Positions 29,038-35,282 of a stretch of DNA of 44,567 nucleotides are shown here, one piece after another. Source of the DNA: Gemmatimonadota bacterium (GTDB lineage: Bacteria; Gemmatimonadota; Gemmatimonadetes; Gemmatimonadales; GWC2-71-9); the NCBI GenBank assembly GCA_003221035.1, contig QHUB01000051.1, forward strand, positions 1 to 44,567. The letters run 5' to 3'. The notes under the pieces were generated by a model. It was not told the DNA's origin and ran no database searches. It saw only the letters and a list, made by a program, of their open reading frames with translations. The first letter of the stretch is position 1, and each line of letters begins with the position of its first letter. A program made the translations under genes and the position numbers.

Positions 29038-30290
29038 ATACGGTCCGGCTGGACCGGGAAATCCACCGTACGGCCGCTCCCAACGGGGTGACCGTCCTGA
29101 GTGAACGCGAGCCCAACGTGCGGTCGGTGGCGGTGGGCGTGTGGGTGCGCACGGCGAGCGCGCACGAGCTGCGTCCCAAGATGGGTGTGTCGCACCTGCT
29201 CGAGCACATGGTGTTCAAGGGCACCGAGCGGCGCACGGCCCAGGAGATCGCGTTGTCGCTCGAGGCGCGCGGCGGCTCGCTCGACGCCTATACGTCGCGC
29301 GATTCGACTGCCTATCATGCCCGCGTGCTCGACGCCGACCTGACGCGCGCGCTCGACGTCATCACGGACATGGTCCGCACGCCACTGCTCCGTGACAGCG
29401 ACCTCTCCCTCGAGCGCCAGGTGGTGCTCGAGGAGATCAGCACCGTCGAGGACACGCCCGACGACGAAGTCTTCGATCTCAGCTACGAAACGCTGTGGCC
29501 GAGCCATCCCTACGGTTTCCAGATCCTCGGCACCAAAGAGAGCGTCAGTGCGCTGTCGGCCGACGATCTCAAGAGCCTCCACAATCGCGCGTACTTTCCG
29601 GGCAATTGCGTGATTGCCGCGGCGGGCAATCTCACGCACGATGCGTTGCTCAAGGAAGTCGAGGCGCAGGGATGGTTCGAGGACGGCGCCAGTGCCATAC
29701 CGCCGCCCGTGCCGCCGGTCCCGCCCGCCATCCGCAGCGTGAATCGGAGTGTCGAAAAGGACACGGCGCAGACGCACGTGGTGTTCGCCACCGATACGAT
29801 TCCATACGCCGACCGGCGCAAGTACGGATTGCTCGTGTTGGCGAACGTCTTCGGCGGCGGGATGTCGAGCCGGTTGTTTCAGCGGATTCGCGAAGAGCTG
29901 GGGCTCGCGTACGCGATCTACAGCTTCACGTCGTTCTATCGCGCGATCGGGATGCAGGGCGTGTATGTCGGCACGCAGCCGGCGCGCGCGGAGAAGGCGG
30001 TCGCGGCGATTCGCGGCGAGTTCGGGCGCATGGCGGCCGAAGGGTTGCAGGGCGCGGCGCTCGAAGATGCGAAGCAGCAGACGCTGGGCCAGCTCATGTT
30101 GTCGCTGGAGAGTCCCACGTCGCGGATGTATCGTTTGGCGAGTACGGCGGTGTATGGCGAGTCGTATCGCAGTCTCGACGAGGTGCTCAGGACGGTCGAG
30201 GCGCTGACTGAGAACCAGATCTCCGAGCTCGCGGCCGAGTTCTTTGCGCCCGAGCGTCAGACCGTCGTCTCACTGGGGCCAAGACCATGA
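29022..30290 (+). CDS. M16 family zinc metallopeptidase (processing-peptidase type)
   Basis: 422 residues. The inverted zinc motif HxxEH is HLLEHMVFKGT near residue 65, with the downstream Glu in LEEISTVEDTPDDEVFDL. The C-terminal half is the inactive M16 repeat (VFGGGMSSRLFQRIREELGLAYAIYSF). The length matches the single-gene YmxG/PqqL-like or MPP-like group that often follows pnp. GTG 29022 or 29025 could serve as start, both in a palindrome without a Shine-Dalgarno. It overlaps ald by 4 bases. No signal peptide is seen, so it is probably cytoplasmic. Confidence 0.9.
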   Translation: MVTTLDTVRLDREIHRTAAPNGVTVLSEREPNVRSVAVGVWVRTASAHELRPKMGVSHLLEHMVFKGTERRTAQEIALSLEARGGSLDAYTSRDSTAYHARVLDADLTRALDVITDMVRTPLLRDSDLSLERQVVLEEISTVEDTPDDEVFDLSYETLWPSHPYGFQILGTKESVSALSADDLKSLHNRAYFPGNCVIAAAGNLTHDALLKEVEAQGWFEDGASAIPPPVPPVPPAIRSVNRSVEKDTAQTHVVFATDTIPYADRRKYGLLVLANVFGGGMSSRLFQRIREELGLAYAIYSFTSFYRAIGMQGVYVGTQPARAEKAVAAIRGEFGRMAAEGLQGAALEDAKQQTLGQLMLSLESPTSRMYRLASTAVYGESYRSLDEVLRTVEALTENQISELAAEFFAPERQTVVSLGPRP

Positions 30291-31399
30291 TCGTCGGCGT
30301 TCCGAAAGAGATCAAAACTGCCGAGCACCGCGTGGCCCTGGTGCCGGCGGGTGCCGAATCCCTGAGTGGTGACGGACACACCGTGCTCGTCGAACAGGGC
30401 GCCGGCCTCGGCTCCGGGTTCAGCGACGAGGCGTATCGCTCGGCGGGCGCGCAGATCGCGCCGAATGCCGATGCGGTGTGGTCCAGGGCCGAGATGATCA
30501 TGAAGGTGAAGGAGCCGACCGAGCCCGAGTGGCCGAAGCTGCGCAAGGGGCAGGTCATCTTCACCTACTTTCACTTCGCCGCATCGGAGCCGCTGACCAA
30601 CGCGGTGATCAAATCGGGCTGCATCGCCATCGCCTATGAGACCGTCGAGCTGCCGAGCAAGGAGTTGCCGCTGCTCACGCCGATGAGTGAAGTCGCGGGC
30701 CGGATGGCGGTGCAGGAGGGCGCGAAGTATCTGGAGAAAGTCTTCGGCGGTTACGGCATTCTGCTCGGCGGTGTGCCGGGCGTGCTGCCGGCCGAGGTTC
30801 TGATTCTGGGCGGCGGCGTGGTCGGGGCCAACGCCGCCAAGATGGCGGCGGGGCTGGGCGCCCACGTCACGCTGCTCGACATCTCGCTCGACCGCCTGCG
30901 CTATCTCTCCGACGTCCTCGCCCCCAATGTTGATCTCCTCTACTCCAACCGACACAATGTGCTCGAGCAACTCGCCAAGGCCGATGTGGTCATCGGGGCG
31001 GTGCTGCTGACGGGGGCGAAGGCGCCGAGGCTCGTGAAGCGCGCGGATCTGAAGCTGATGAAGCAGGGGTCGGTGATCGTGGATGTCGCGGTCGATCAGG
31101 GCGGATGCATCGAGACCACAAAGCCGACCACGCACGACCAACCCACGTATATGGTCGACGGCGTGATCCACTATGCGGTGGCGAACATGCCGGGCGGTGT
31201 GCCGAGGACGTCGACGCTGGCGCTGACGAATGCGACGTTCCCGTATGCCAAACGCCTGGCGCGAGACGGGTGGAAAAATGCCTGCAAGAAGGATCCGAGT
31301 CTGGCGCTCGGGTTGAACGTGGTCGAGGGGAAGGTTGTCTATCCTGGCGTGGCCGAGGCGTTCGGGTTGCCGCTTGCCGAGGCAACGTCGGTGCTCTAA
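30287..31399 (+). CDS. ald: Alanine dehydrogenase
   Basis: 370 residues. It interconverts L-alanine and pyruvate plus ammonia with NAD. The N-terminal [20 protein letters not shown], the active-site AxYFHF-like [14 protein letters not shown], EMSxVAGR-like [14 protein letters not shown], and the NAD-binding [19 protein letters not shown] are all present, as is [16 protein letters not shown]. Length equals the family norm. It overlaps the M16 gene by 4 bases and is followed by the fluoride-type leader. Confidence 0.96.
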
Positions 31400-31418
31400 G
31401 GTGCTCGAGGGGGGGGAC

Positions 31419-31544
31419 ATGCGACTGCCCGTTGTCATTCTCGCAATAACCGCCTCCATGGCTGATGACTCCTACCTTGCACTCGCGTCGAGTGCGGCAG
31501 GAGTTTTTTTTGCCCCTCGACCGCCTGAGAGGGGAACTCCGTGA
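31419..31544 (+). CDS. Possible 41-residue leader peptide overlapping the crcB leader
   Basis: ATG 31419 follows a very strong purine tract (GAGGGGGGGG, ending 31416) and the frame runs through the riboswitch-like segment and terminator to a TGA that overlaps the crcB GTG by 4 bases. The product (MRLPVVILAITASMADDSYL and a further 21 residues) is hydrophobic at its N-terminus. The overlap suggests possible coupling, but the RNA element is the stronger explanation of this sequence, so the coding call is weak. Confidence 0.3.
   Translation: MRLPVVILAITASMADDSYLALASSAAGVFFAPRPPERGTP
31444..31477 (+). promoter_or_regulatory. Fluoride (crcB-motif) riboswitch, 3' half recognised
   Basis: AATAACCGCC, a short GCC/GGC hairpin with loop TCCAT, and GGCTGATGACTCCTACC match the conserved second half of the crcB/fluoride riboswitch, and crcB lies downstream. 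The ACTCC here should form a pseudoknot with GGAGT in the loop of the first stem, but no GGAGT exists upstream; the first stem may be GCGA/TCGC (31421-31424, 31441-31444) with an unusually long loop. The aptamer is therefore a variant or is degenerate at its 5' side. Confidence 0.65.
31468..31511 (+). terminator. Intrinsic terminator of the crcB leader (riboswitch expression platform)
   Basis: ACTCCT (31468-31473) pairs with AGGAGT (31499-31504), with an inner stem GCACTCG/CGAGTGC (31479-31485, 31489-31495) and eight T residues (31504-31511). ACTCC belongs both to the aptamer and to this stem, the usual switch design: ligand-bound aptamer would keep ACTCC away and allow crcB read-through. Confidence 0.85.
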
Positions 31545-31933
31545 GAACAGTCTATGGATATCTGCTGGTCTTCCTCGGCGCCGGCATGGGTGGGGCGCTG
31601 CGACATTCGTTCAACCTGGCGTCGGCCAGGGTGTTTGGACCTGACCTTCCCTTGAGCACGCTCGTGGTGAACGTACTTGGCTCTTTCAGCATAGGATGCA
31701 TCGCGGGCTATTTCGCGGTCCGCGGGCACGGTTCCCAATCGCTGCAACTGTTTCTCACGACCGGCATCCTCGGCGGTTTCACGACATTCTCTGCATTCTC
31801 GCTGGAGGCCGCGCTCCTCTGGGAGCGCGGGCAACTGAACAGCTTCGGCGTGTTCGTCCTGGCCTCGGTGATGTTGTCGATTGCGGGAGTGTTTGCCGGC
31901 CTGGCACTGGTTCGCTCGTGGCACCTGGTCTAA
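31541..31933 (+). CDS. crcB: CrcB/Fluc fluoride channel
   Basis: 130 residues, four transmembrane helices (YLLVFLGAGMGGALRHSF, TLVVNVLGSFSIGCIAGYF, LFLTTGILGGFTTFSAFSL, VFVLASVMLSIAGVFAGLAL). The Asn in VNVLGSFSIG and the GGFTTFSAFSLE motif are the fluoride-pore signature. It exports fluoride as a dual-topology dimer. The start GTG has GAGGGG about 7 bases upstream. Expression is expected to be fluoride-induced through the leader at 31444-31511. Confidence 0.95.
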   Translation: MRTVYGYLLVFLGAGMGGALRHSFNLASARVFGPDLPLSTLVVNVLGSFSIGCIAGYFAVRGHGSQSLQLFLTTGILGGFTTFSAFSLEAALLWERGQLNSFGVFVLASVMLSIAGVFAGLALVRSWHLV

Positions 31934-33428: not shown

Positions 33429-35282
33429 GTGTCCGATAACCTCGGCATGAACGAGGCGATCACGCGGCGCGACTTCCTCAACGGAACCCTGCTCGCGGGA
33501 GCCGGGCTCGTGCTGGGACGGTCCATCCAGGCTCCCGCGATCTCTCCCGCCGACGCCTGGGATGGCTACGGCGGCGTGGGCGACTATGCGCGCGCGCACG
33601 GCAACATGTACGACGTCATGACTACGGCGCATCGCATGCGCGACGGCGATTTCGAGCGCAAGATCGGCGGCGCGACCGACACCGGTGAGATCTACGACCT
33701 GGCCTGCGTGGGCGGGGGACTCAGCGGGCTCGCCGCGGCGGTGTTCTTCCAGAAAAGGCGCACAGGCACGTGCGTCGTGCTCGATAATCACGCGATCTTC
33801 GGGGGCGAAGCCAAGCGCAACGAATTCAGCGTAGACGGGCAAACCGTCGTCGCGCATCAGGGCTCGGCCATCTTTCTGGTTCCGCAAAAGGGCGGCTACA
33901 CCGACTCCGTCTACAACCTCATCGGGATGGATCGGTCATCGTTTGAGTATCAGGCGTGCGCCGAGATGCCGCTCGCGCACAGCCCGTACGAGGAGCCACA
34001 CAACTACGGCTTCTATTTTGGCTCGCCATTCGGGCAGCGTCCCGGGGTCTGGGTGCTGGATCCGTGGGGCCGGCAACTGGACGGCGCGCCGCTCTCTGAT
34101 GCCGTGAAAGCGGAATGGCTGCGCACGCGGACCGTGATCAATCCGGGACCGCGACCAGTGACGGAAGGGGACACCATCTCCCGTCAACTCGACGGCATCA
34201 CGCTCGAAGATCATCTGATGGCTCAGCACCAGGTCAGCCGCGAAACGGTGCGCACGTTCCTGTCGCCGGTCGAGGGTGGCGGCTACGGCCTCGGCCCCGA
34301 CGCGCTGTCGGCCTACTGCAACTACGCGATCGAGACACAGTTTCCCGAAGACGGCGACGAGACGCTCGGCGATCAGATGTTCCCCGACGGGAACAGCGGG
34401 TTCGCCCGCCTGATGGTCAAAACCCTCATTCCCGCTGCGATTGCGGGGCCGAGGACCGTCGATGCAGTGTGGCAGAACCGCGTTCAGTTCGCCGCCTTGG
34501 ACCGCGCCGGCCAGGCGACGCGAATCCGGCTGAATGCGACGGTCGTGAGAGTGGTCCATGCGGGGAATCCCGCACAGGCTCCCCACGTCGTCATCACATA
34601 CCTGAAGGGCAACCGCCTGTTCAATCTGAAGGCACGCGCGGTCGTGATGGCGGGAGGGAGCTGGACCACCAAGCACATCGTGAGTGATCTGCCCGAGAGC
34701 CATCGCGCGGCGTACGCACAGTTCTACCGGTCGCCGTGCCTGATGGCCAACATCGCGGTTCGCAACTGGCGTTTCCTCTACAAGATGGGAATGTCGGGAT
34801 GCCGCTGGTTCGGGGGCCTGGGGGACTATCTCTCGGTGCGGAAGCAGGCGACGGTCGGCGGCATGCGCTCGGAGTTCGGACCCGACTCGCCCACCGTGCT
34901 GACCATCAAAGTCCTATTTGCCAAGCCGGGGTTGCCCGTCGCCGAGCAGGGCAGCGGAGGTCGAACGGAACTATTGGGCACTTCGTTCGGGCAGTATGAA
35001 CGGACGTTCCGGCAGCAGTTCGGCGATATGTTCGCGCCGGGCGGATTCGATCCGCGCCGCGACATCGCCGGCATCATCCTCAATCGCTGGGGACACGCGT
35101 ACGTGAATCCGCAGCCCGGATTCTTTTTCGGAGTGAACGGACAACCGGCTCCGCGCGACGTGCTCCGAAACAGCGCCCACGGGCGCATTGCGTTCGCGAA
35201 CACCGATCTCGCGGGAGCGATGGATCACCGCAACTCGATCCGCGAAGCCGACCGCGCGGTCAATCAGCTGATCGGCGCGTGA
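33429..35282 (+). CDS. Tat-exported FAD oxidoreductase, spermidine dehydrogenase-like
   Basis: 617 residues. A twin-arginine signal (ITRRDFLNGTLLAGAGLVLG) marks export in folded form. The FAD-binding Rossmann motif is LACVGGGLSGLAAAVFF at about 91-107, and the second half of the flavin site is near RIAFANTDLAGAMDHR at the C-terminus. Overall length, the ADAWDGYGGVGDYARAHGN segment and FFxxG-type HNYGFYFGSPF match SpdH-like spermidine dehydrogenases. It would oxidise a polyamine or other amine in the periplasm. A VOC gene overlaps its stop by 4 bases. Substrate is inferred from family only. Confidence 0.85.
   Translation: MSDNLGMNEAITRRDFLNGTLLAGAGLVLGRSIQAPAISPADAWDGYGGVGDYARAHGNMYDVMTTAHRMRDGDFERKIGGATDTGEIYDLACVGGGLSGLAAAVFFQKRRTGTCVVLDNHAIFGGEAKRNEFSVDGQTVVAHQGSAIFLVPQKGGYTDSVYNLIGMDRSSFEYQACAEMPLAHSPYEEPHNYGFYFGSPFGQRPGVWVLDPWGRQLDGAPLSDAVKAEWLRTRTVINPGPRPVTEGDTISRQLDGITLEDHLMAQHQVSRETVRTFLSPVEGGGYGLGPDALSAYCNYAIETQFPEDGDETLGDQMFPDGNSGFARLMVKTLIPAAIAGPRTVDAVWQNRVQFAALDRAGQATRIRLNATVVRVVHAGNPAQAPHVVITYLKGNRLFNLKARAVVMAGGSWTTKHIVSDLPESHRAAYAQFYRSPCLMANIAVRNWRFLYKMGMSGCRWFGGLGDYLSVRKQATVGGMRSEFGPDSPTVLTIKVLFAKPGLPVAEQGSGGRTELLGTSFGQYERTFRQQFGDMFAPGGFDPRRDIAGIILNRWGHAYVNPQPGFFFGVNGQPAPRDVLRNSAHGRIAFANTDLAGAMDHRNSIREADRAVNQLIGA

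Follow-up and report, generated by a model that had tools for sequence, protein, structure and literature searches.

A likely chimeric, truncated fluoride riboswitch in front of a Gemmatimonadota crcB gene

In the stretch of Gemmatimonadota DNA analysed here (44,567 nucleotides, referred to as the window), the gene for the fluoride exporter CrcB is preceded by what we consider likely to be a chimeric, truncated fluoride riboswitch, in which a rearrangement fused the end of the alanine dehydrogenase gene ald with the interior of a riboswitch, leaving a fluoride-blind attenuator and a crcB gene expressed by read-through. Two of the features by which a functional fluoride aptamer is defined are missing from the element. 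As the fluoride-gripping half has been replaced, crcB is probably no longer under fluoride control; to judge from the sequence, fluoride sensing has probably been lost and the element acts as a fixed terminator. It is ordinary in kind and unusual in its clean cut.

The 3' half of the aptamer is intact

A cmscan search of the window gave a match to RF01734 at 31411..31481 on the + strand (34.2 bits, E 1.7e-7), only marginally above the gathering cut-off of 34 bits, and the sole match at that level in the 3.36 Mb genome. Nearly all of this score derives from a perfect 3' half (AACCGCC...GGCUGAUGACUCCUACC), and the two stretches that a preliminary description of this DNA had assigned to the crcB motif, AATAACCGCC (31446-31455) and GGCTGATGACTCCTACC (31460-31476), are indeed present. 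The intact part (31448..31469, +) comprises AACCGCC, P3 (GCC/GGC) and GGCUGAUGAC; in the full 3' half, AAUAACCGCC-UCCAU-GGCUGAUGACUCCUACC, every letter is the consensus of the genus and phylum relatives, and AACCGCC-P3-UGAUGACUCCUAC is likewise identical to consensus. The 3'-half pattern is present in 21 of 395 genomes of the phylum, and a reversed control pattern gave 0 matches. Eighteen of the 20 other matches are evident fluoride aptamers, and all 18 carry GGAGT; the remaining two (L199 and L200, from genomes G392 and G063) lack the flanking aptamer motif, apparently lie within a coding region and are ascribed to chance. They are a reminder that, as sequence, the 3' half on its own is no proof of an aptamer.

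The promoter-proximal half has been replaced

The element ACUCC (31468..31472, +), the 3' strand of the canonical pseudoknot, is partnerless here and also makes up the base of the terminator. The preliminary description had found no GGAGT upstream of ACTCC, and the same holds for any five-base partner of ACTCC, G-U pairing included. Only a G-run (31408-31416) offers complements to CUCCU; it is located outside P1, its pairing would be nested instead of making a pseudoknot, and this candidate was discarded. The AUG that the P1 loop contributes to the site for fluoride and magnesium is missing as well, GCGA-UGG having become GCGA-CUG followed by a longer loop. Canonical aptamers carry GGCGAUGGAGUUCGCC ahead of AACCGCC, and the window has UGCGA-CUGCCCGUUGUCAUUC-UCGCA instead.

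These losses are exceptional among relatives. In a script check, a five-base complement to the tail was found upstream in 47 of 50 loci, the exceptions being the window, L028, which is a weak 23-bit match without the motif, and L087 from Ensifer, so that the pseudoknot partner is kept in about 47 of the 48 other genuine fluoride aptamers compared (same genus, family, order and class, plus Alphaproteobacteria). Note that the Ensifer aridi aptamer (L087:2736-2813, 46.6 bits) places GGATT in the P1 loop against ACTCC, a pseudoknot with one mismatch, and by its sequence is a possible second weakened case. Since the 3' half is perfect and the replaced features are kept by almost every relative, a decayed aptamer with constitutive attenuation is the best fit among the three options considered in the preliminary description, the others being a variant aptamer and control by leader translation.

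The first stem may survive. In the covariance-model alignment and in ViennaRNA folds, a candidate P1 (31420..31445, +) pairs UGCGA (31420-31424) with UCGCA (31441-31445) around the 16-base loop CUGCCCGUUGUCAUUC, which replaces UGGAGUU, compares with 7 canonical loop bases and contains neither AUG nor GGAGU. Its predicted pairing probability is 0.8-0.92; among shuffles of the upstream sequence, 28% contain TGCG and 5% contain TGCGA. The covariance-model check, proposed earlier as a way to reveal a normal first stem and pseudoknot, thus returned a match whose first stem may have four or five pairs and which has no pseudoknot. One observation speaks against a mere remnant, namely that in P1 the outer pair may have changed from G-C to U-A with the stem preserved, as might be seen in functional RNA, although chance could produce the same. 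A structured replacement aptamer was considered and rejected, as region 31400-31466 folds no better than shuffled sequences (z 0.28).

The boundary is abrupt: a perfect 3' half stands beside a wholly replaced 5' half, with no scattered mutations. The aptamer match begins 11 bases past the ald stop codon, and a consensus promoter scan found no promoter-like site in 31150-31600; such scans perform poorly in GC-rich phyla, and ald itself may contain a promoter. Read together, the perfect 3' half, the replaced 5' half, the closeness to ald and the lack of a promoter-like site suggest a single joining event.

The terminator is strong

An intrinsic terminator hairpin (31467..31515, +) is predicted here. 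GACUCCU/AGGAGUU, with ACTCCT (31468-31473) pairing to AGGAGT, encloses a GCACUCG/CGAGUGC hairpin, and eight T follow. At -21.9 kcal/mol (z -3.67; zero shuffles equally stable) it is much stronger than the corresponding hairpins of the two genus relatives folded (-11.4 and -15.3 kcal/mol). A simple terminator scan of the window did not list it because that scan disallows the hairpin's internal loops. The earlier statement that ACTCC is common to the motif and a strong terminator is thus borne out, and a terminator sharing the pseudoknot strand is followed, as in genuine members of the class, by a fluoride gene.

Genomic context of crcB and ald

The crcB gene (31541..31933, +) is intact, encodes 130 aa (PF02537 81.3 bits; NF010794 CrcB equivalog 156.9 bits, above cut-off), and the genome has no other crcB. 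Its closest relatives are alphaproteobacterial genes, up to 66% identical, several of which have canonical aptamers, and the nearest family member (in G023) is 56% identical, has no aptamer and directly overlaps an upstream gene; aptamer-less crcB genes are common within the family. Same-genus species carry canonical aptamers of 60-67 bits at other genomic places, in front of divergent crcB genes about 30% identical to that of the window. By similarity only, this suggests a lateral origin of crcB. The ald gene (30287..31399, +; TIGR00518 517.9 bits) is 87-93% identical in most same-genus genomes, where other genes, not crcB, come next wherever the contig continues. The arrangement of the window was found by DNA comparison in 0 of 60 relatives, and plasmid matches are confined to the crcB part and stop short of the query's first 159 bases. 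Because no relative with this locus was found, we infer its function, and with only one genome carrying it conservation cannot separate decay from a lineage-specific working variant.

Some further observations were made on the way. One same-genus genome, 79% complete, has a pair of strong fluoride riboswitches on the same contig, separated by about 1.5 kb (L004:1501-1562 and L029:1501-1562; G001:C216:20365 and 18820), and only one crcB was found in it. In two Delftia records, matches to the Rfam P9 sRNA (RF00624) lie just after crcB (L116:3447-3529 and L117:3432-3514). Within the window, 33429-35282 encodes a 617-aa protein with a twin-arginine-like start (RRDFLNG) and weak FAD/NAD-binding matches only, its best NCBIfam hit being PigB, far below cut-off.

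The leader ORF and possible translational control

The genes pnp, M16 peptidase and ald follow one another closely in the same orientation, and the sole large gap before crcB is filled by a 41-codon leader ORF (MRLPVVILAITASMADDSYLALASSAAGVFFAPRPPERGTP, 31419..31544, +). Its ATG lies 19 bases past the ald stop codon behind a Shine-Dalgarno-like, G-rich run read directly from the sequence (GAGGGGGGGG, 31407..31416, +), no stop occurs before the start of crcB, and its TGA overlaps the crcB GTG (31541) by 4 bases (GUGA). Ribosomes could nonetheless read the ORF as a link between ald and crcB, and the arrangement invites the explanation that it is translated through the terminator, which would block the hairpin and couple the leader to crcB, so that expression follows ribosome traffic and not fluoride. 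We regard control of this kind as unlikely. The ORF and ribosome site emphasised in the preliminary description do exist as sequence, but the case for the ORF is weaker than that description suggested: in the window, reading frames of at least 41 codons start at 64% of the + strand ATGs, and the codon score of the leader, although above 99% of out-of-frame stretches (their mean -0.62), is -0.15 against a mean of 0.56 (sd 0.17) for in-frame stretches of the window genes and below all of them, with a GC3 of 0.51 vs 0.83. Its codon usage is thus not gene-like, predicted pairing buries the G-run, and the peptide has no family match in Pfam or NCBIfam. The same codon usage is unsupportive of long-standing leader translation and to that extent also counts against the ribosome step in the mechanism that we prefer.

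In three same-genus species a gene for a small secreted or anchored protein, which received no family assignment, lies downstream of ald (L173, L174, L175). The start of the leader ORF bears a weak likeness to this gene that is not significant, being reached by a fraction of 0.13 of shuffles for DNA and 0.03-0.25 for protein, and descent from it was rejected as an explanation; no match to the gene was found in the window's genome.

A possible shifted pseudoknot and other readings

A second alternative is a working variant aptamer with an enlarged P1 loop, in which GUUGUCA (31431-31437) would pair with UGAUGAC (31463-31469) as a shifted pseudoknot that still competes with the terminator base. 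We hold it to be quite improbable. The helix, which is the only alternative pairing of the loop with the 3' tail, has seven contiguous pairs including two G-U and is matched by 3.4% of shuffled loops; together with the five-pair P1, whose TGCGA is itself found in few shuffles, the perfectly kept 3' half and a match above the Rfam cut-off, it gives the variant some footing. The helix would, however, pair away UGAUG, which we take to be unpaired and touching the fluoride-bound core in known structures (PDB 4ENC), it shares only three bases with the terminator stem, and the arrangement was not seen in any other genome searched. The broader proposition, judged from sequence features, that the element is either an aptamer responsive to fluoride or another ligand through GUUGUCA/UGAUGAC, or a remnant rebuilt as a translation-controlled attenuator whose terminator is overridden by leader ribosomes, appears doubtful to us. 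An assembly or binning error joining two molecules at about 31400-31446 would account for the abrupt boundary and for an arrangement confined to this genome, but is very improbable, as the site is internal to its contig, completeness of the genome is 98.7% and its contamination 0.5%, the same contig runs on into the downstream genes, and this is the genome's only crcB.

Proposed origin and mode of action

We thus favor the chimeric remnant. On this view, the end of ald would have become fused by a rearrangement with the interior of a unit made up of fluoride riboswitch, terminator and crcB. The promoter-proximal half of the aptamer would have given way to other sequence, and with it the GGAGU pseudoknot strand, the fluoride-site AUG and presumably the unit's own promoter. 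Without the pseudoknot, fluoride would be unable to keep ACUCC from the terminator, and the hairpin would therefore act as a fluoride-blind attenuator. Production of CrcB would then rely on polymerase reading through from pnp-M16-ald, with crcB as the tail of that operon. Ribosomes re-initiating on the leader ORF may follow the polymerase across the terminator and suppress it, and might then hand over at the GUGA overlap, yielding low constitutive crcB expression.

If this is correct, the window holds a natural 'half riboswitch', in which the expression platform and the 3' half of the aptamer were retained while the ligand-gripping half was swapped in a single step. From cases of this kind one can see how riboswitch control over a gene is given up and what a fluoride exporter does thereafter, and they are a warning that a match barely over the Rfam threshold can be a remnant that does not sense its ligand.

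Comparison with known systems

Literature searches, covering mainly titles and abstracts, gave no record of a natural fluoride riboswitch without a pseudoknot or of a leader ORF in a fluoride riboswitch. According to excerpts of PMC11077080, the B. cereus pocket mutation U41A gives 16% fluoride-independent antitermination, and T. petrophila variants with weakened pseudoknot pairs show no fluoride response in vitro; from these mutants, loss of the whole pseudoknot should abolish sensing.

The closest known system is the Bacillus cereus crcB riboswitch (RF01734), which has an intrinsic-terminator platform. The window element resembles it in the 3' half of the aptamer, P3, the U-tract and crcB as the regulated gene, and in both ACUCC belongs to the pseudoknot strand as well as to the terminator. 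It differs in lacking the GGAGU strand, the fluoride-site AUG and a promoter-like site in front, and in its P1 loop of 16 rather than about 7 bases. A second parallel is found in the logic of trp-type attenuation, where read-through of an attenuator depends on translation; here, likewise, a short ORF preceded by a ribosome site extends across the terminator. Unlike a trp-type leader, however, the putatively translated leader of the window has no regulatory codon run and no stop before the terminator.
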